In this document: in pieces, positions 1-16,721 of the stretch
Numbering within the stretch: the stretch's first letter is position 1
Layout of the letters: each line of letters starts with the position of its first letter
From: a virus
Length of the DNA: 23,376 nt
Direction: 5' to 3' (one strand)
IMG/VR virus record: IMGVR_UViG_3300008450_000477
Location: 1-23,376 of that record
Notes under the pieces: model-generated
Database searches by the model: none
What the model saw: the letters and a program-made list of their open reading frames with translations, nothing else
What the model was told of the DNA's origin: nothing
Translations under genes and position numbers: made by a program

Positions 1-1229
1 GAACATTGATACACATACGTTGAACCAACGATATCGTAAGGAACTTTCCAATATAAAGTTCCGGTGACTTGTCCTTGAGCTGAAGATCCTGTGGTTAATG
101 TTCCGTCTGTATCTATATGAGTTAGACCCGTGTTGTAATTAGATCCTCCTGATGACACCCGAACCATAAATGGATGGCCAGAAACATCAAGATCAAATGC
201 AATTGTTTCACCAGCACGAATATAAATTGTTGGATTATTTCCTGAATATTGGTCAATACTATAGTACATTCCAGGAGTTGTAACTGCCAGCTTAGTAACA
301 GCACTTGTATAATTTGAATTAGCTTGAGTAAAAGCACCATTAGCAAAAGATGCCGCAGAGTTGGCTGCATCAAAAGCACCATTAGCAAACGATGCACCAG
401 AATTTGCCTTATCAAAAGCATTATTCACATATGGCAATAAATCTATGCCCTTGATTGTAATTGATGTAGATTTTAGATTTGCATTTAATGTTGCAATCTT
501 AAATGAACCATCTGTTATAATGATGTTATTGTTTGAACCAACTTCTGGAGTATATTCTTCAAACAACTGCCATTCTTTGGTACCAGCATCACGTATCAAA
601 CCTGTGTGTGCATTGGTACCATTATTATAGTGTGCCGCAAAACCAATATCAAGTACATCACCTGAATAGTTTCCGGTACCCATGATGAACAGAGTATCAT
701 TAGCAACAATCTGTGTGGCACTGGTGCTGAATGTGTTTCCTGTTATGGAAAGATTGCCTGTAATATTAACATCACCAGAAATTGTACCACCAGAAGAATT
801 AAATTTCAGATTGGCTGTTGTAAATGCACCGTTAGCAAAACTGGCTGCTGAGTTGGCTGTTAAGAAAGCTGCATTTGCAAATGTTGCACCAGAGTTGGCT
901 GCTACAAATGCACCGTTGGCAAAATCAGCTGTTGTATTTTGTGATGTAAATGCCGCATTAGCAGTTACAAAAGCACCATTAGCAAATGTTGCACCTGAAT
1001 TGGCTTTATCATATGCATTATTAGCTTGTGTTCTTACCCATGGATCTGTGGCAGTATTTGCAGCATTATAGGCCGCATTGGCTCTATCAAATGCTGCGTT
1101 CGCCAAAGATGTTATTACGTTAGCATCCGTACGCAACCTTGTCCATGTGCCATAAGTGTCACTGTAGGTATATGTTATACCGTTTACTGTGGCCGTTTGG
1201 CCATTGGTTGGTGATATTGGAAATGCCAT
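1..1229 (-). CDS. FANGAF-repeat tail fibre, partial at C-terminus, ending in a cupredoxin-like domain
   Basis: The frame is open from an ATG at 1227-1229 to base 1, giving 409 residues with the end off the edge. The N-terminus (MAFPISPTNGQTATVNG, then Y/W residues) is the short docking module common in marine phage fibres. Residues about 40-140 and 275-310 carry the 14-residue FANGAF..ANS alanine-rich repeat, probably a trimeric helical shaft. Residues about 144-266 hold a module with GFAAHYNNG and HTGLIRD motifs, also present in the 757- and 642-residue fibres of this window. From about residue 310 the protein is beta-rich. It has GHPF (His 352) and ends at the edge in YVYQC (Cys 409), the spacing and context of a blue-copper (cupredoxin) fold. 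ATG follows the upstream stop by 2 bases with no Shine-Dalgarno, so coupled translation is likely. Fibre identity is strong; copper binding is inference. Confidence 0.85.
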   Translation of the reverse strand, partial: MAFPISPTNGQTATVNGITYTYSDTYGTWTRLRTDANVITSLANAAFDRANAAYNAANTATDPWVRTQANNAYDKANSGATFANGAFVTANAAFTSQNTTADFANGAFVAANSGATFANAAFLTANSAASFANGAFTTANLKFNSSGGTISGDVNITGNLSITGNTFSTSATQIVANDTLFIMGTGNYSGDVLDIGFAAHYNNGTNAHTGLIRDAGTKEWQLFEEYTPEVGSNNNIIITDGSFKIATLNANLKSTSITIKGIDLLPYVNNAFDKANSGASFANGAFDAANSAASFANGAFTQANSNYTSAVTKLAVTTPGMYYSIDQYSGNNPTIYIRAGETIAFDLDVSGHPFMVRVSSGGSNYNTGLTHIDTDGTLTTGSSAQGQVTGTLYWKVPYDIVGSTYVYQC

Positions 1230-1231
1230 TT

Positions 1232-2197
1232 TTAATTAAATTTAATTGTTCCTGAACCTGTAAAGGTATATATTCTAAAACCAGATAGTATTGAATATGT
1301 AACTGTACCTGTTGTTGTGGCTGCTGCGTAACCGGTTGGGTACTTGATGACTGCAATACCTGAACCACCGTTACCACCTATACCTCCTCCGATACTTGAG
1401 CTGCCGCCTGATCCTGCGCCACCACCCGTATTAGTACCTCCATTACCACCCGTTTGTGGATTTGATGCACCCGCTGTACCATTACTTCCACTATTTAATG
1501 CACTACCTCCACCAGTTCCCGCTATCGAAGATGTACCAGTGGCTGCACCACCTCCTCCACCACCAATGCCGCCGTTGCCACCTGTCGCACCGGAGGTGCC
1601 CACACTGCTAGCGCCGCCACCGCCACCCCAATAATAACTTGGACCTAGTATGCTGTTTTCTATGCCGGGACCACCGTTTCCACTTATAGCAGTGCTTGTT
1701 GCACTCAGACCATTACCACCAGCACCACCGCCACCGCCAGCGCTGTTTGGAGTTCCACCGTTGGCACCATTTCCACCTTGAAACCCATAACCTATTTGAG
1801 TTATTTGTAATGTAGAACCACCCATACCTCCGCCACACCCGCCGGATCCTGGCCATCCTGGTAATGTCGCTTGCGGGGTGCCAGACCCAGGACCACCACC
1901 GATGGCAGTTATATTCATATTTGTTGCTGTTATTTTTGAACTACCTCCCCAGCCACCCTGAGTGACTGTCTGACCACCGTTACTTGCACCGCCACCAACG
2001 ACAGTTATTGTATATACTATATTTCTATTTAATTTAAAATTTTCATTATAAACAACACCTCCACCACCACTGCCACCGAAGCCGCAGGCTCCACCTGCTC
2101 CTGATCCAACTAATAATATATCTGCTATTATAAATTCACTACTTAAAGTAGTATTCTTGATGGATATTTTACTTTTGGATAAAGTTTTGATTGCCAT
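1232..2197 (-). CDS. Free-standing glycine-rich adhesin (gp38-like)
   Basis: This 321-residue protein is dominated by glycine, with many GGGGG, GGNGG and GGAGG runs between residues 30 and 275. The N-terminus (MAIKTLSKSKI) leads into a strand with LLVGSGAGG. The C-terminus has the pattern GGSGIAVIKYP, then TTG, then YTFTGSGTIKF, which I recognise as the usual end of phage glycine-rich domain proteins. In T-even phages of the S16/T2 type, gp38 adhesins of this composition cap the distal long tail fibre and bind the receptor, using packed polyglycine-II helices. That role is inferred here from composition and position among fibre genes. Two cysteines (in GGACGFGG and GGCGGG) are present. The gene follows the 109-residue gene with a 1-base gap and no clear ribosome site, so it is probably translationally coupled. 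The proline-rich antisense frame is only its complement. Confidence 0.85.
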   Translation of the reverse strand: MAIKTLSKSKISIKNTTLSSEFIIADILLVGSGAGGACGFGGSGGGGVVYNENFKLNRNIVYTITVVGGGASNGGQTVTQGGWGGSSKITATNMNITAIGGGPGSGTPQATLPGWPGSGGCGGGMGGSTLQITQIGYGFQGGNGANGGTPNSAGGGGGAGGNGLSATSTAISGNGGPGIENSILGPSYYWGGGGGASSVGTSGATGGNGGIGGGGGGAATGTSSIAGTGGGSALNSGSNGTAGASNPQTGGNGGTNTGGGAGSGGSSSIGGGIGGNGGSGIAVIKYPTGYAAATTTGTVTYSILSGFRIYTFTGSGTIKFN

Positions 2198-2198
2198 A

Positions 2199-2528
2199 TT
2201 ATGTTATCTCACTACCATAAGCATGAAAACTTATTAATGCACTACTTGCATTTACTGTGACAACATCAGTTGCTGCTAAAGTTAAACCAAGTGTCAATGA
2301 TAACATATCATTTGCTGGTACAGGTGTGTCAAATGCCAAATAGTGTTGTGTAGCCAATGTTGCTCCTGCTGGACGAATAGCCACTTTAACTGTGCCACCA
2401 GTTGCAGACTGATTGCAAATAGAAAGTGTGGAAATAATTGTACTTGTTGCCGCAGGTACAGTATAAAGAGTTGTTGCTGTGTTTGCTGCTGGATTTGATT
2501 GACCTAAAACTTTGTATGCTGTTGCCAT
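2199..2528 (-). CDS. Small beta-rich virion-type protein, paralogue of the 108-residue protein at 5177-5503
   Basis: This 109-residue protein starts MATAYKVLGQSNP and ends GSEIT. An upstream ATG at 2574-2576 is in frame but would overlap the end of the preceding gene by 43 bases. The chosen start lies 5 bases after that gene's stop, has GGAATAA ahead of it and matches family-like N-termini. The pattern TLYTVPA..TSTIISTLSICN, alternating hydrophobics, and a late L.AATDVVTVN segment suggest an all-beta sandwich. The 108-residue protein shares the layout T(L/I)YT, ST.I, I.N, L.A.D...V.S and the terminal EIT. Similar small proteins occur beside fibre genes in T4-like cyanophages, without a proven function. 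It may be a fibre connector or a decoration protein. Confidence 0.75.
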   Translation of the reverse strand: MATAYKVLGQSNPAANTATTLYTVPAATSTIISTLSICNQSATGGTVKVAIRPAGATLATQHYLAFDTPVPANDMLSLTLGLTLAATDVVTVNASSALISFHAYGSEIT

Positions 2529-2533
2529 TTTTA

Positions 2534-2887
2534 TTATTCCGCCATTTCTATCCAAGAAATTGTTTTTTCGTCCCAACCGTAAGATTTGCCGTCTGTTGGA
2601 TATTCAGTCGGTGCTTCCCATTGGCATGTATTTTCATTTAACGTCCAACTGTCAAAAGGTTTTGGTGGTATGAACGCATCACGAACTGAATCATATATGA
2701 ATCCTATACCAGCATAATTTTTTCTCAATGGTATTCCACCCAATCGATGTACACCTCCAACTGTATTGTAACTTGTTTGTACGAAACTATTTGGATCACC
2801 AAAAAGTCCTGTGTCAATAACATCTTGTTCTATTACTAGAACTTGTTTTACAATATTGTTTTCATCTATTTGTGCAAAGTGTGCCAT
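2534..2887 (-). CDS. Conserved marine T4-like phage protein of the RKNYAGIG / RDAFIPPKP family
   Basis: This 117-residue protein begins MAHFAQIDENNIVKQVLVIE. It contains FVQTSYN, RKNYAGIGFIYDS, RDAFIPPKPFDSWTLNE and a tryptophan-rich end (YGWDEKTISWIE). I recognise this family from T4-like cyanophages and related marine myoviruses, where it is frequent among structural and tail genes and usually annotated hypothetical. The N-terminal half (DENNIV..V) and the C-terminal W..P..YP.DGK.Y.W motif are both intact, so the protein looks complete. A purine-rich AAGGAACGGAATAAAA precedes the ATG and overlaps the upstream stop. It sits between a FANGAF fibre and the adhesin cassette, which suggests a virion or fibre-associated role. 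The molecular function is unknown. Confidence 0.8.
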   Translation of the reverse strand: MAHFAQIDENNIVKQVLVIEQDVIDTGLFGDPNSFVQTSYNTVGGVHRLGGIPLRKNYAGIGFIYDSVRDAFIPPKPFDSWTLNENTCQWEAPTEYPTDGKSYGWDEKTISWIEMAE

Positions 2888-2901
2888 TTTTATTCCGTTC
2901 C

Positions 2902-5175
2902 TTATGCACCCATTAACAAGAATGGACTAATTGTTTCTGTGGATGCACTGCTAGTTGTACCGTTTGAAATTGTTGGTGAAGTTATATCTACCCAATTATT
3001 GCTTGTGCCATCATTTATATATTCATAAAGAATATCTGTTGTAGTTAAATACCAATGGTCTCCAGGTTTTGGTGATGATGGCGCAGTAGACGATGCTGTA
3101 TATATTGTAACTGTATTTGCTTTTGTAAATGATGCATTGGCTGTTGTAAAGGCACCATTAGCAAAGCTAGCTGCCGAATTAGCCTGTAAGAAAGATGCGT
3201 TAGCTGTATCTCTGGCATAAGTGTCAGCACCGCCACTTGTGTTTGCTGCTAAGTAAGCTGCATTAGCGTGAGCATATGCCGAATTGGCAAAACCAGCCGT
3301 AGTGTTTTGTGATGCATAGGATGCATTAGCAGTTATAAAAGCACTGTTAGCAAAGCTAGCTGCTGAGTTGGCTTTATCAAAGGCTGCATTGGCAAATGTT
3401 GCACCAGAATTGGCAGTAGTAAAAGCACCATTAGCAAATGATGAACCAGAATTTGCTACGCCATATGATGCATTAGCTCTATCGAAAGCACCATTGGCAA
3501 AACTTGAATTAGAGTTTGCAGTTACAAAAGCTCCGTTGGCAAATGAACCAGCTGAATTAGCAGTGTCATAAGCATTATTAGCTTGTGTTCTTACCCATGG
3601 ATCTGTGGCAGTATTAGCTGCAGCAAAAGCCGCATTGGCTCTATCAAATGCTGAGTTTGAGTTGTCTGTAACTACTGGTACGTTACTCAACATTTCACGA
3701 ACTTGTATTACCGACCCACTACTTGGTGCCGTTGTGAAAGTTAATGTTGTACCACTTACACTATAATCAACTATTGGATTTTGTGTAATACCATTATCAA
3801 AAACAAGAATGCTATTTGATGTGGTGTTTGCTGTTACTGTAAATGTGGTGGTACTACCATCACCAGCAAATGTTCTTGTTAAATAATATAATGATGCAGT
3901 GTTACTACTGGTGATAATTGCATTGTATGCCAAATTGGCTTGAGAGAAAGCACCATTTGCAAATGAACCAGCCGAATTAGCAGTGTCATATGCATTGTTA
4001 GCCTGAGTTCTTACCCATGAATCAATAGAACCTGTGTTTGCAGCACTGTACGCAGCATTTGCACGGTCAAAAGCACCATTAGCGAACGATGCACCAGAAT
4101 TGGCAGTTACAAAAGCACCATTAGCAAATCCTGCTGTTGTATTTTGTGAATTGTAAGATGCGTTGGCCGTTATAAAAGCACCGTTAGCAAAACTAGCTGA
4201 TGAGTTAGCTGTTACAAATGCTGCATTGGCAAATATTGCAGCTGAGTTGGCTGTTGTGAATGATCCGTTGGCGAAACTGGCTGCCGAGTTGGCTGCTACG
4301 AAAGCACCATTAGCAAATGATGCACCAGAATTGGCAGCTGCATATGCATTGTTTATATAAGGCAATACATCTATATTTTTTATCAATATAGTTGTTGATT
4401 TTACATTTGCATTTAGAGTGGCAAGTTTGAATGATGCATCCGCAATGTTGATGTTGTTGTTTGAACCAACTTCTGGAGTATATTCTTCAAACAGTTGCCA
4501 TTCTTTGGTGCCCGAATCTCTTATCAATCCAGTATGTGCGTTGATACCATTATTATAGTGTGCCGCAAAACCAATATCTAAAATGTCACCAGAATAGTTG
4601 CCTGTGCCTAGAATTATTAGGGTATCGTTAGCAACAATTTGAGTTGCACTGGTACTAAATGTATTACCTAATACACTTAGGTTACCGGTAATAGAAACAT
4701 CACCAGAAATTGTACCACCAGATGTATTAAATTTTAAGTTTGCTGTGGTAAATGCACCATTAGCAAAACTGGCTGCCGAATTGGCAACATCGAATGCTGC
4801 CTGCGCCAACACATTTGCAGAATTGGCCTTGGTGAAAGCACCATTAGCAAAAGATGCACCAGAGTTGGCTGTTACAAAAGCTCCGTTAGCAAATGAACCA
4901 GCTGAATTAGCAGTATCATAAGCATTGTTAGCCTGATTTCTCACCCATGAATCTGTGGCAGTATTAGCTGCATTGTATGCAGCGTTAGCTCTATCAAAGG
5001 CACCATTAGCAAAAGAACCCGAACTAACGGCTTTACCATCAGCCGTATTAGCTGCATCAAAAGCTCCGTTAGCAAATGAACCAGCTGAATTAGCAGTTAC
5101 AAATGCACCATTGGCAAATGAACTGGCTAACCTTACATCCTTACTTCCTTGATTGCCAATGTAATTAAATTGCAT
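2902..5175 (-). CDS. Large FANGAF-repeat tail fibre (757 residues)
   Basis: The sequence is dominated by a 14-residue repeat (SFANGAFVTANSAA and variants, roughly 20 copies) interrupted by three compact modules. Residues about 146-271 are the GFAAHYNNG/HTGLIRD module, about 85-90% identical by eye to that of the fibre at the left edge. Residues about 431-494 are a beta-sandwich with FAGDGSTTTF, DNGITQNP and DYSVSGTTLTF, also seen in the 1529-residue fibre. The last 65 residues hold a small domain with PKPGDHWYLTTTD and NNWVDI, a common end in marine phage fibres. The two-heptad repeat with F/A at core positions suggests a helical, probably trimeric shaft. The ATG lies one base after the stop of the 108-residue gene (EIT, stop, T, ATG) without a Shine-Dalgarno site. 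It is probably a receptor-binding or side fibre of the virion. Confidence 0.88.
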   Translation of the reverse strand: MQFNYIGNQGSKDVRLASSFANGAFVTANSAGSFANGAFDAANTADGKAVSSGSFANGAFDRANAAYNAANTATDSWVRNQANNAYDTANSAGSFANGAFVTANSGASFANGAFTKANSANVLAQAAFDVANSAASFANGAFTTANLKFNTSGGTISGDVSITGNLSVLGNTFSTSATQIVANDTLIILGTGNYSGDILDIGFAAHYNNGINAHTGLIRDSGTKEWQLFEEYTPEVGSNNNINIADASFKLATLNANVKSTTILIKNIDVLPYINNAYAAANSGASFANGAFVAANSAASFANGSFTTANSAAIFANAAFVTANSSASFANGAFITANASYNSQNTTAGFANGAFVTANSGASFANGAFDRANAAYSAANTGSIDSWVRTQANNAYDTANSAGSFANGAFSQANLAYNAIITSSNTASLYYLTRTFAGDGSTTTFTVTANTTSNSILVFDNGITQNPIVDYSVSGTTLTFTTAPSSGSVIQVREMLSNVPVVTDNSNSAFDRANAAFAAANTATDPWVRTQANNAYDTANSAGSFANGAFVTANSNSSFANGAFDRANASYGVANSGSSFANGAFTTANSGATFANAAFDKANSAASFANSAFITANASYASQNTTAGFANSAYAHANAAYLAANTSGGADTYARDTANASFLQANSAASFANGAFTTANASFTKANTVTIYTASSTAPSSPKPGDHWYLTTTDILYEYINDGTSNNWVDITSPTISNGTTSSASTETISPFLLMGA

Positions 5176-5176
5176 A

Positions 5177-5503
5177 TTACGTTATTTCTAATAAACTTAC
5201 AATAACGTCTGCTGCTGATGCATTGCTGGTAGAAACTTTAAGTATATCACCAGCTTCCAATACTAATTTTTGTTCACCACCAATGGTGATTAAAGAATTA
5301 CCTGGATCAATTGTGGCCATCTTAACCATATAATAATCTGATGCACTAGAAGTTACTATAACATTTGCAGTTATTGATGTGTTCAATATGTTTGCAATAG
5401 TCATACCAATAACTGTGGTGGATACGCCTGCACCAGCAGTGTAGATGGTGACTGGTGAAGTTCCGACTGCTGCTTGTAGTTGATTTTTGAAAGTATTTGC
5501 CAT
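5177..5503 (-). CDS. Small beta-rich virion-type protein, paralogue of the 109-residue protein at 2199-2528
   Basis: This 108-residue protein runs from MANTFKNQLQAAVGTSPVTIYT to SLLEIT. It shows alternating hydrophobic strands, a central YYMVKMATIDPG segment and EQKLVLEAGDILKVSTS, typical of a small beta-sandwich. I recognise the family from T4-like cyanophages, with its GG(D/E)QKLVL.(P/A)GD and LEIT signatures. It is often found next to fibre genes and has no established function. The start is supported by AAGGAAATTTAA immediately upstream and by the late-promoter-like AATAAATA at 5522-5529, making it the first gene of a transcription unit. The next gene, a FANGAF fibre, starts one base after its stop. 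Confidence 0.8.
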   Translation of the reverse strand: MANTFKNQLQAAVGTSPVTIYTAGAGVSTTVIGMTIANILNTSITANVIVTSSASDYYMVKMATIDPGNSLITIGGEQKLVLEAGDILKVSTSNASAADVIVSLLEIT

Positions 5504-12131: not shown

Positions 12132-15100
12132 TTAATAGAAAATTATAATACCACCAGCACCACCATTTCGATTTGCTGTTGTGCCGCTGGCACCGGGACC
12201 ATTTGCAACTGTAGCACCTGCACCATTACCACCATTAAGACCGCCGCCGCCCCCGGTGGCGGCACCGTCACCCGCAGATGACCATGAAGCGGTTTCTCCA
12301 CCATAAAGAGACCTTAATATTTGGCTACTAGAAAGTTTTTGAGCACCGTTTCCGAAAGAAGCGCTACCTGGACCTATATAAATTGGGTATAGTGGACCAT
12401 AAGTAATATATCCTCCCGCTCCACCTGTGGCAGTTACATAACTGCCAAAAGATGTTGATCCTCCAGCAGAACCACCAGCATATGGAAACACTTGAGCACT
12501 TTGAGCACCACCGGTACCAATAGTGCAATATATACTTTGACCTGGTGTAACAGTAATTAGGGCTTCTCCTGCACCACCAGCACCACCCATAGTAGGTATG
12601 TTTGGTGTGGCCTCTAGATAAGCACCACCACCGCCACCACCAATACAAACAACACGCAATCTAGTGACTCCAGAAGGTACTGTAAAATTTTGTGATGATG
12701 TTATAACCGTCATATTTGATACTGATGTACCTAAACCCAATGATGTTGCACCACTTGAGGTTAAGTAACCTGAGTCGTTACTGAATGAACTAACGGTTGT
12801 TGGTCTACCGCTAACACTGGTCCATGCAACAGAACCAGCATTTGCAGCATATCCAGCATTTGTAGCAGAACCAGCATTTGTTGCAGAACCAGCACTTGTA
12901 GCATATCCAGCATTTGTAGCATACGTTGCATTTCCAGCACTTGTAGCATATCCAGCATTTGTAGCAGAACCAGCACTTGAAGCATATCCAGCATTTGTAG
13001 CAGATCCAGCACTGCCAGTGACATTAATACTCCAAGTGCCAGAAGCACCAGTACCCGTTTTGGTTGGTGCATAAGAAGTATAGTTACCAGAATCTAGTAT
13101 AACATAAGAACCACCTGGACGGCTCCATCCACCAGTTCTTAATTGGTTATCTGTGCCTAGTCCAAGATTAATTGCATATAGACCAGTTCTGTGAAAAGAA
13201 ATGGCCGCAGCACCCTGTGCAGCAGTACTATTGCCTTGTGACATAATTTGCGGTCCTAGATGATCGGCAAAACCAACATCTTGGCCAGATACAGAATAAC
13301 CTAAAAGACCTTTAGTAGAGTTGACATTACCAGCATTACTAGCGTAACCAGCATTTGTAGCAGAACCAGCATTTGTAGCAGAACCAACACTCAATGATCC
13401 AACTAAGTAACTACGCATATAATCGTCAGTGCCGTTTGTACCCCAAACTCTTGGTGGGTTGCTAGAATTTCCTTCGTTACCAGTACTTGAGTTGAAATAA
13501 GTTGCTAGAATATGACCATCACCATTGGTTCTTACAATCTTATTTGCTTCATTGTTTCTAGTAGTAGAATTAACTGACAAACTACCAACTGTTCCCGCAT
13601 CACCAGAAATACTTACACCACTTAATGTTTGTGCTGCACTCGCACGATTCAATGCAATTGATGTTGTGCCAACAAAAAGTGATGAGTTGCCTAAAATTGC
13701 ACTACTAATTGTACCACCGGATAACTTACCTGCACTTAATGATGTTATAAATGCTGGATCTGCAAGACTTGATGTTGTATAGACACCATTTGTTACTGTA
13801 CCAGCATTACCTGTTATACTGTGTGTAAATGTATAAGAAGAATTTGCTAAATCGTGTACATATTGTCCAGTTGCGAATGAAGTATTTGCGGTTGCTTTGT
13901 CAATTGTTTGGCCAATAACTTGGCCAGTAAATATACCGCCACTTTTTGGCATCTTACCAGATTCTAATGCATCAATTGCACTTTGAATTGTGCCTGTTGT
14001 CAGAGCACCTGTTGCTGGTCCGTATACAATATTGTTTGCAAAATATTCATATACTGCATAACCATCTACTTCGACCAATATTTTATCATTAACAACTGGT
14101 GCAACAGTCATTGTCACTCTAGATGTACCAGAATTTAAACTATATTCAGATTCTAATTGACGAACACCATTAATATACACTCTAACTTGGTTGGCCTGAC
14201 TGAATGTTGGTGTTGCATATATTGTTGTTGTACCATCACCAGTATAAGATAATCTATTAGATGTAATTCTAGTACCTGGTTGTGTACCTGCACCACCTGC
14301 ACCAGCAGCAGTCCAATAAAAACCTGTACCAGTAGTTGCAAGAACATAACCTGAAGTTGGGTTTGGTGTGGCAGTTGCGGCCGCAACCAGTGTATTGAAG
14401 GCTGATGCAGCTGATGTTGAACCAGTACCACCAGATGATGTTGGCAATGGAGTTCCAGGTAATGTCAATGAAGAAAATGACGGAGTTGCAGTAGTCCGCA
14501 AATCTTGTGATGTGCTGATTGCTAAGGTGTTTGCAGTAGTTGCATAAATTTGTACACCATTATTTGATGTAAATGTCAATGATGCATTGGTTGGTGATAT
14601 TGAACCTGTTGTTCCTTTAATCTCAGATGTTGCAGCATTGGCCTTTGAAAAAGCCGCATTAGCTTTTGCGTGTGCTGGTTCAATTTGTGGTCCAACATTG
14701 TTTGCTGCAGCGAAAGAAGCATTTGCATGTGCAAAACCAGCATTTGCAAATATTGCTGTAATGTTTTGTGCCAAATAAGCTGAATTGGCTCTAACAAATA
14801 CACCATTAGCAAATGAATCAGAAGAATCTACTCTTGCTTTTAAGAAAGTATTCGCTGTTTGTATTGCATTGTTTAATGTGTTTGCCGCTGTGGCTGATGC
14901 GGCCAATATTGAACTTACTGTTGTTGTTGAATCACTGACTTGTTGTTCGGTAATAATTCTGTAATATGTTCCATCACTAACGTCATTTAGATCAAAATAA
15001 TTATCTGTTTCATTCCAACGAATAGATGCATTCGATGCAACACCATTTGCCGCACCATTAGCTGTTCTGAAAACACTGAATTTTGATGTTTGATTTGGTG

Positions 15101-16721
15101 TTCCTTGACTTATAATAAATTCATTTGAATTAAATACTGTTCTTCCATTAAGTGTGAAGTTACCAGCAATACTTAAACCACCTTCACCAACCTGTAGGTT
15201 GAAAACTCTTGCTTCAGCATCTTCAGCATCAATTAATTCTGAAACTCTGACATTTGGTGTGAAAACATCAGAATTTGCTCTTATTGTATTTGCCGTTACT
15301 GTGTGGGTCGACCAAACATTTACTGTATTAATTCTAGTATTTGCTACTAACAAATCTGTATGTGTCGTACCAGTAACCGACATGGTTCTAGTGTTAGCCG
15401 CAGAATTGGCTTGCAGAACATCCGTATGAGTTACACCAGTAACAGACATGGTTGTAGTATTGGCTGCACTATTAGCTTGTAATACATCTGTATGAGTTAC
15501 ACCAGTAACGGACATTGTTCTAGTGTTAGCAGCTGAATTGGCTTGCAGAACATCCGTATGAGTTACACCAGTAACGGACATTGTTCTAGTGTTAGCAGCT
15601 GAATTGGCTTGCAGAACATCCGTATGAGTTACACCAGTAACAGACATGGTTGTAGTATTGGCGGCAGAATTTGCCTGCATCACATTAGTGTGTGTGGTAC
15701 CAGTAACAGACATGGTTCTAGTATTAGCAGCTGAGTTGGCTTGCAGAACATCTGTATGAGTTACACCAGTAACTGTCATTGTTTCGGTGTTGGCTAATGT
15801 ATTAGCCTGTAACACATTAGTGTGTGAAGTATTGGTTACCGATAATGTGGTTGTATTGACCGCACTATTAGCTTGCAATATATTAACAAATGCAGTTTGA
15901 GTTACAGAAAGTGTTTGTGTATTGGCCTGTGTGTTGGCCTGCAAATTCTTGGTAAATGTTGTGTCAGTAATTGAAGCAGTTGTTGTATTAACTGTAGCAT
16001 TAGCCTGCACATTATTTGCATACAAAGTCCAAACGATACTTGCATTTGATGTGTTTGTTGAAGTATTAGCCTGTAACACATTAGTATGTGTAATACCAGT
16101 AACAGACATTGTTCTGGTATTAACAAAGTCATTAGCCTGTAATGATCCTGTTAATACTTTCGTATTTGCTTGTAAATAAGTTGTGTAACTGGAACTATTT
16201 GCAACCGAAACATCTGTTAATGTGCTAGTATTTGCTTGTAATTTATCCGTAAATGTAGTGTTATATATTGAAGCGTATGATGTATTAACAGTATTATTTG
16301 CCTGTAGTGTTCTTGTGATGGTTGCATATGATATTGCAACATTACCACTAATTATAGCATTGTTTGAAACTACTAATGCATTACCTGTTCCTAAAACTGT
16401 TAAAGTTTTTCCTACATTTGCACTACCTGTTGTTGCAAGACTTAAATTTACGTTTGTAAAATAACCTTGACCCTGAACATCTAAATTGTTTTGAATTGAT
16501 GCAGAAGAACCTATGCCTTGAACAGAAAATACTTTTTGTATAATAACATTGCCGTTTGATTGTAGGGCTGTTTGTGAACTTTCTGAAAGATATAAAGTTC
16601 CAGAATCTTTGATATAATTTTCTTTAGCAAGAATGTTATTTTCTATAACTAAATTGTTGGTCGCAACCATCCAATCACCAAATGTATTGGCATAACTTAA
16701 TGAGGATACTGTATTAGCCAT
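12132..16721 (-). CDS. Giant tail fibre with 22-residue LQAN repeats and fused glycine-rich tip (1529 residues)
   Basis: The N-terminus (MANTVSSLSYANTFGDWMVA, then Y.KDSGTLYL and FSVQGIGSSASIQNN) is a docking module I recognise from T4-like marine phage fibres. Residues about 135-473 hold about 16 copies of a 22-residue unit, MSVTGVTHTDVLQANSAANT in the best copies. A region with LSIAGNFTLNGRTVFNS and IRWNETDNYFDL follows. Residues about 610-680 carry FANG-type repeats, 750-780 a TSSGGTGSTSAASAF motif, and 820-891 a GDG beta-sandwich. Hexapeptide GSATNA/GYATSA repeats lie near 1236-1295, followed by SGRPTTVSSFSNDSGYLTS. The last ~170 residues are a glycine-rich domain (GGGGGGAYLEA, GGAGGAGEALITVTPG, GGAGGIIIFY), a fused counterpart of the free adhesin at 1232-2197. 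AAAAAGG precedes the ATG. It is likely a main host-binding fibre. Confidence 0.9.
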   Translation of the reverse strand: MANTVSSLSYANTFGDWMVATNNLVIENNILAKENYIKDSGTLYLSESSQTALQSNGNVIIQKVFSVQGIGSSASIQNNLDVQGQGYFTNVNLSLATTGSANVGKTLTVLGTGNALVVSNNAIISGNVAISYATITRTLQANNTVNTSYASIYNTTFTDKLQANTSTLTDVSVANSSSYTTYLQANTKVLTGSLQANDFVNTRTMSVTGITHTNVLQANTSTNTSNASIVWTLYANNVQANATVNTTTASITDTTFTKNLQANTQANTQTLSVTQTAFVNILQANSAVNTTTLSVTNTSHTNVLQANTLANTETMTVTGVTHTDVLQANSAANTRTMSVTGTTHTNVMQANSAANTTTMSVTGVTHTDVLQANSAANTRTMSVTGVTHTDVLQANSAANTRTMSVTGVTHTDVLQANSAANTTTMSVTGVTHTDVLQANSAANTRTMSVTGTTHTDLLVANTRINTVNVWSTHTVTANTIRANSDVFTPNVRVSELIDAEDAEARVFNLQVGEGGLSIAGNFTLNGRTVFNSNEFIISQGTPNQTSKFSVFRTANGAANGVASNASIRWNETDNYFDLNDVSDGTYYRIITEQQVSDSTTTVSSILAASATAANTLNNAIQTANTFLKARVDSSDSFANGVFVRANSAYLAQNITAIFANAGFAHANASFAAANNVGPQIEPAHAKANAAFSKANAATSEIKGTTGSISPTNASLTFTSNNGVQIYATTANTLAISTSQDLRTTATPSFSSLTLPGTPLPTSSGGTGSTSAASAFNTLVAAATATPNPTSGYVLATTGTGFYWTAAGAGGAGTQPGTRITSNRLSYTGDGTTTIYATPTFSQANQVRVYINGVRQLESEYSLNSGTSRVTMTVAPVVNDKILVEVDGYAVYEYFANNIVYGPATGALTTGTIQSAIDALESGKMPKSGGIFTGQVIGQTIDKATANTSFATGQYVHDLANSSYTFTHSITGNAGTVTNGVYTTSSLADPAFITSLSAGKLSGGTISSAILGNSSLFVGTTSIALNRASAAQTLSGVSISGDAGTVGSLSVNSTTRNNEANKIVRTNGDGHILATYFNSSTGNEGNSSNPPRVWGTNGTDDYMRSYLVGSLSVGSATNAGSATNAGYASNAGNVNSTKGLLGYSVSGQDVGFADHLGPQIMSQGNSTAAQGAAAISFHRTGLYAINLGLGTDNQLRTGGWSRPGGSYVILDSGNYTSYAPTKTGTGASGTWSINVTGSAGSATNAGYASSAGSATNAGYATSAGNATYATNAGYATSAGSATNAGSATNAGYAANAGSVAWTSVSGRPTTVSSFSNDSGYLTSSGATSLGLGTSVSNMTVITSSQNFTVPSGVTRLRVVCIGGGGGGAYLEATPNIPTMGGAGGAGEALITVTPGQSIYCTIGTGGAQSAQVFPYAGGSAGGSTSFGSYVTATGGAGGYITYGPLYPIYIGPGSASFGNGAQKLSSSQILRSLYGGETASWSSAGDGAATGGGGGLNGGNGAGATVANGPGASGTTANRNGGAGGIIIFY
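12838..13015 (-). repeat. 18-bp tandem repeats encoding GSATNA/GYATSA hexapeptides
   Basis: About ten tandem units of 18 bases (type CCAGCATTTGTAGCAGAA on the plus strand) encode a six-residue G-(S/Y)-A-T-(N/S)-A repeat inside the giant fibre. A shorter group of the same unit lies near 13333-13400. Such units can expand or contract by slippage without breaking the frame. Confidence 0.75.
15303..16330 (-). repeat. 66-bp tandem repeat array encoding 22-residue LQAN units
   Basis: About 16 tandem units make up this part of the giant fibre, the first few shorter or diverged. Bases 15505-15570 recur at 15571 with almost no change (first difference at the sixth base of the following unit). Similarity is highest in the 15360-15780 section and fades towards the N-terminal end, indicating recent amplification at one end of the array. 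Confidence 0.85.

Follow-up and report, generated by a model that had tools for sequence, protein, structure and literature searches.

A predicted cupredoxin domain between the repeats of a viral tail fibre, with relatives in virion proteins of aquatic tailed phages

The window analysed here, a stretch of 23,376 bases that is a complete IMG/VR virus record (IMGVR_UViG_3300008450_000477) with reading frames open at both ends, probably carries at its left edge a genuine cupredoxin domain, homologous to the blue copper proteins and inserted between the repeats of a fibre of an uncultured aquatic phage. With the complete type-1 ligand set (His352, Cys409, His412 and Met415), the domain would be a member of a family of virion modules that bind copper, are filled after lysis and act as a rigid knob or joint. 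That is, a known fold and a known site are found in a place that is unreported, as far as we found.

The fibre gene occupies positions 3..1229 on the minus strand, where 409 amino acids of its product are visible before the left contig edge cuts it, and the protein is characterised by FANGAF/alanine-zipper repeats (Alanine_zipper, PF11839, E 6e-05 in Pfam). FANGAF/FANAAF repeats form an upstream stretch at residues 82-136 (822..986, minus strand), and FANGAF-type repeats at residues 281-300 (330..389, minus strand) immediately precede the domain. The first ~105 residues of the domain, 305-409 (3..317, minus strand), are free of such repeats, as the preliminary description of this DNA had stated. 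It had also located a histidine at 352 within GHPF and a cysteine at 409 on the very edge, and both positions are exact. The codon of His352, the candidate N-terminal copper ligand, lies at 174..176 (minus strand) and corresponds to H48 of alignment A1, where it is invariant, while that of Cys409, the candidate thiolate ligand, lies at 3..5 (minus strand) and is the last codon of the visible reading frame, whose product terminates in ...GSTYVYQC. The last ~15 residues of the domain, that is, His412, Met415 and the final strand, fall outside the window, past the left edge.

The missing part could be read from another contig, IMGVR_UViG_3300027798_000224 (L009), which is 99.7% identical to positions 1-5317 of the window and extends past the edge, and whose fibre differs from the window fibre at one residue out of 409. 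After Cys409 the L009 protein continues with CSIHSGMVGNIVIDQPTVIAF and then with FANGAF/FANAAF/FANASF repeats, six of them in all after the domain, to a full length of 752 aa. The segment C-SI-H-SG-M (CSIHSGM) places His412 and Met415 after Cys409 in the form C-x2-H-x2-M, and the motif C-x(2-4)-H-x(2-4)-M that had been foreseen past the edge is thus present there. On the other hand, what had been taken for the end of a tail fibre is only the end of the contig: the cupredoxin domain (about residues 305-420) is an internal knob between two stretches of repeats, not the fibre terminus.

A paralogous fibre gene, 2902..5175 (minus strand), encodes a protein that is 82% identical to the first fibre over 266 aa and lacks the cupredoxin domain, and it constitutes a natural domain-minus comparison for the fibre described above. 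The remaining reading frames of the window have no significant match to the cupredoxin family. Among them, a gene at 12132-16721 (minus strand) encodes a protein of 1529 aa, which has no PHROG match and contains 66-base repeats (MSVTGVTHTDVLQANSAANT) and 9/18-base GSATNAGYAT repeats; the DNA repeats of this gene are located at 15354-15826 and 12835-13011.

The query of the first search consisted of the 105 visible residues only and stopped at Cys409, so His412 and Met415 were absent from it. The motif C-x2-H-x2/3-M was nevertheless present in all 80 of the first relatives (the x3 form in 1 to 3 of them, belonging to one phage type), which amounts to an unbiased prediction and not to chance, because the His and the Met lay outside the query. 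Among 154 distinct copies of the domain, none of which was excluded, the His, Cys, His and Met ligands all rank among the top six of 116 columns in conservation, and 152 of the copies retain all four. It should be noted that the patterns of the family scans were set around segments of the domain, in some cases with the first His or the Cys included, and the conservation of those two is therefore partly favoured by the search, while that of the last His and the Met in the first search is free of this bias. Only the copy in L244 and the second of two tandem copies in L042/L119 depart from this, and in both the His, Cys and His are lost together and never singly. In the L042 and L119 proteins the ligand-less copy spans residues 429-526 of the reading frame and immediately follows the intact one.

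In addition, 149 of the 154 domains contain exactly one cysteine. The ligand Cys is also the sole cysteine of the whole 752 aa L009 protein and of the gp9 proteins of five of the six cyanophages examined, and consequently these proteins have no partner with which it could form an intrachain disulphide. The conserved ligands together with the single cysteine are the pattern of a putative metal site. Since the conservation of the ligands resembles that of an active site, the cysteine has no in-chain disulphide partner and the loop is of the amicyanin type, we consider it quite probable that the domain binds copper in the virion. Then, could the domain be a metal-free or incidental beta-sandwich, an Ig-like adhesion or spacer module in which the four residues owe their conservation to a structural need? 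Such modules are portable, and the position of the present domain varies in the same way (internal, C-terminal, between collagen-like repeats or stand-alone), while the two copies without His, Cys and His persist. However, the ligand columns are highly conserved and the ligands are lost only together, a lone, conserved, partnerless cysteine in an exposed virion protein is hard to explain otherwise, and we regard the metal-free module as unlikely.

The putative copper site could depart from the classical blue type. Pro follows the first His (HPF) in 150 of the 154 copies, at the position where type-1 sites have an Asn or Ser that gives an outer-sphere hydrogen bond. In plastocyanin, azurin and amicyanin the first His is usually followed by Asn, but this is not general in the superfamily, and multicopper oxidases also have HP. 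An assignment to the multicopper oxidases, whose type-2/3 cluster is bound by the HxH motifs of several cupredoxin domains, was rejected, given the single cupredoxin domain and the absence of the HxH motif from the L009 protein. A third histidine (H67 in A1, within GLTH) was considered as a further ligand and rejected as well, since it is invariant in A1 and has no counterpart in cyanophage gp9.

The fold was predicted by AlphaFold2 with an alignment of 34 relatives (a single-sequence run gave a pLDDT of 31 and was not used). The resulting model of the domain, with a pLDDT of 92.3 and a pTM of 0.86, is mostly beta. The first His comes directly after strand 38-44 and the C/H/M loop sits between strands 100-105 and 112-118, which in the model is the cupredoxin arrangement, and the Greek-key barrel that the preliminary description had expected is indeed predicted. 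The best 50 matches of the model in the PDB by Foldseek are all cupredoxins (rusticyanin, amicyanin, plastocyanin, nitrite reductases and laccases), with a best E of 2e-4 and moderate TM-scores of 0.4-0.6. A second structure aligner gave a Z of 10.8 to nitrite reductase. For the N-terminal domain of 2dv6, itself a cupredoxin, the Z was 10.5, with 92 residues aligned at 1.9 A and an identity of 29%.

Homology to cupredoxins could also be traced in the sequences themselves. The truncated domain of the window alone has no cupredoxin match in Pfam or PHROGs, because the diagnostic loop lies beyond the contig edge. The complete domain of L009 matches PF00127 (Copper-bind) with 14.6 bits, under the gathering cut-off of 21.2 bits, and Copper-bind matches 32 of 34 close relatives, with a best E of 1.2e-5. 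The NCBIfam matches are headed by plastocyanin, amicyanin and rusticyanin; membership of these equivalog families was rejected, since the L009 domain remains under their cut-offs (for example, 16.4 vs 146.7 bits for rusticyanin and 12.6 vs 110.2 bits for amicyanin). A profile of six cyanophage-type domains (A2) matches amicyanin over most of the domain, with an E of 0.0018. A further profile (A4) was built from 28 diverse members, the two ligand-less copies having been excluded beforehand, and its invariant columns are Y18, H45, P46, Y90, C92, H95 and M98. Searched against the PDB sequences, it matches Cu nitrite reductase (1.4e-5), plastocyanin (2e-5) and rusticyanin (3.5e-5); all the listed matches to an E of 0.21 have the cupredoxin fold, and the first non-cupredoxin appears at 0.33. 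In the alignment with rusticyanin, GHSF/GHDF stands opposite GHPF and Y-C...H...M stands opposite Y-C..H..M. PF25489, a domain named after a plant protein (At5g54830-like), shares profile matches with the phage domains, in that it matches 10 of the 28 A4 members (best E 1.1e-05), and it is possibly the nearest non-phage relative of the phage cupredoxin type.

The domain is widespread in aquatic phages. At least 599 stretches in IMG/VR match the A1 pattern and at least 600 the A3 pattern, and the 50,697 annotated phage records include at least 367 with a match, the majority from Synechococcus and Prochlorococcus phages. The preliminary description had regarded a copper-type fold on a fibre as unusual, a view that this distribution does not bear out, while its mention of HP(F/L)...YYYC..H..M in marine phage structural proteins agrees with the annotated phage records, where that pattern is present. 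The commonest carrier there is gp9, the 'baseplate wedge tail fiber connector', and window-type and gp9-type domains are homologous (hhalign probability 99.7, E 5.7e-27). Ocean phages in culture are among the carriers, with the domain in baseplate and fibre proteins; for example, the tail fibre of the Pelagibacter podophage HTVC028P has the domain near its C-terminal end. It also occurs in large cyanophage structural proteins and in proteins with collagen-like GPQ repeats on both flanks. One A1-type copy is present in 20 of 21 longer records. Three contigs (L068, L074 and L150) have, besides the copy in the fibre, a divergent one between collagen-like GPQGPQ repeats, encoded in a reading frame upstream of the fibre. 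On these sequence comparisons, the family appears to be a large one, made of portable cupredoxin modules that aquatic tailed phages carry in virion proteins of the baseplate and the fibres.

Among bacterial and archaeal genomes, no relative was found with the A1 pattern, and 15 loci were found with the A5 pattern, which rules out the wider family being confined to phages. Several of these 15 loci have, by eye, apparent signal peptides or lipoprotein signals, and the corresponding proteins, some of them bacterial surface proteins, would thus be secreted, to where copper is accessible. Some of the contigs may actually be phage. Two loci in alphaproteobacterial single-cell genomes, L255 (OCS116 clade) and L260 (PS1 clade), each encode a protein (422 and 449 aa) in which two cupredoxin domains stand in tandem, the first of which is of the NHPL type with all four ligands.

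Then, which metal would the site hold? A conserved Met ligand is unusual for Zn, and a His-Cys-His-Met set with a loop of amicyanin length is typical of Cu. This argues against the alternative that Zn or Ni is loaded in the cytoplasm during assembly and serves stability only, like the Fe/Zn in the T4 fibre tips, which we consider rather improbable, even though the cytoplasm in which virion proteins fold contains little free Cu, and cupredoxin folds can hold other metals, as in the Zn-bound cupredoxin-like structure 4hcg among the Foldseek matches. Phage fibres with metal, at HxH iron sites, are also known (PMC11705849). If the metal is copper, as we favour, it would probably be taken from the water after lysis, because virion proteins such as this fibre are made in a reducing, copper-poor cytoplasm. 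The metal would then hold the barrel rigid, as a knob or joint that sits on the fibre itself or, as in cyanophage gp9, where fibre and baseplate meet, and this could support the stability, swivelling or adhesion of the fibre. We hold this mechanical role with less confidence than copper binding itself.

Other roles for a bound copper could also be imagined, among them the link to host chemistry or metal availability that the preliminary description had suggested. The copper-loaded domain might be recognised, in the manner of a Trojan horse, by a copper-uptake or surface protein of the host, or give a redox response at the cell surface. An analogous hypothesis concerns iron and the HxH fibres of marine phages (PMC11705849), and relatives of the domain are present in fibres and baseplates of phages with different hosts. 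However, many copies lie inside the protein or where fibre and baseplate join, away from the receptor-binding tip, and the occurrence of the same module in Synechococcus, Prochlorococcus and Pelagibacter phages argues against one specific receptor, so that such a role is very unlikely.

An auxiliary metabolic gene, that is, a plastocyanin-like electron carrier for host photosynthesis, deserves almost no credence. It is true that cyanophages do have petE, and that in phage S-SCSM2R a relative of 168 aa is labelled 'PetE'. However, the domain is fused to fibre repeats or to gp9, and in the window it is within the fibre reading frame, an architecture that contradicts the photosynthetic reading. 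In addition, psbA was not found in 14 IMG/VR relatives, many of which are fragments, and a separate petE (plastocyanin) gene is present in four of the six cyanophages checked. In those four, the virion domain is thus not the electron carrier, and a carrier role in metabolism is unlikely in general, since the domain resides in structural proteins, in part of phages that encode plastocyanin separately. The S-SCSM2R protein (PQ898602.1, 2803-3309; L166) is encoded beside structural genes and has the domain of the virion family, and its label is probably a misannotation.

No description of cupredoxin domains in phage virions was found in the open-licence literature, and InterPro may already list the fold. 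The sequence evidence suggests that very common phages may carry copper on their tails, a phage-tail metal that has not so far been reported, as far as we found. The copper dependence of adsorption is directly testable, because the hosts (Synechococcus, Prochlorococcus and Pelagibacter) can be cultured. A wider proposal, which we advance tentatively and with some doubt, is that the dominant phages of the sea and of fresh water, T4-like cyanophages included, have virions that are copper proteins, in which Cu captured after lysis is needed for the function of the fibre. If so, copper in the surroundings would have an effect on infectivity, and the copper-ligand pool of the ocean would include phages. 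There would be 18 copies of gp9 per T4-like cyanophage particle, if the stoichiometry follows T4. The unexplained C-terminal domain of cyanophage gp9 gains a fold and a hypothesis. For viromes, plastocyanin (petE) calls may include structural proteins and the counts may be inflated, one deposited record being an apparent example.

Compared with known systems, the phage domain has in common with amicyanin, plastocyanin and rusticyanin (PF00127, PF13473) the predicted fold and a His followed by C-x2-H-x2-M, and the loop length of amicyanin is exactly that of the phage domain. However, those proteins are free electron carriers, whereas the phage domain is a module within fibre and baseplate proteins, and its first ligand is followed by PF (HPF) instead of the N of their HN.

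Among phage fibres, iron-binding HxH sites are known from T4 gp37 and from the Alteromonas phage R22Y (PMC11705849), where, as predicted here, a marine phage has a metal site in its tail fibre. Those fibres differ from the L009 fibre in fold, in ligands and presumably in metal, and the HxH motif is absent from the L009 fibre, whose histidines are at 200, 208, 352, 371, 412 and 487.

Another counterpart is gp9 of T4-like cyanophages (PHROG 677, 'baseplate wedge tail fiber connector'). The match of this PHROG to the domain is at 8.5e-26, and cyanophage gp9 has the domain C-terminally, complete with the four ligands of the fibre described here. The baseplate domain T4_gp9_10_N is present in cyanophage gp9 but not in the window protein, which is a repeat-rich fibre; identification of the latter as gp9 itself was rejected, and it is the domain that is shared, not the identity of the gene. 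In T4, the C-terminal domain of gp9 serves as the attachment site of the long fibre (PMC3004832). A knob or joint made rigid by copper, as proposed here, would fit the internal position in the fibre and the position in gp9 alike.
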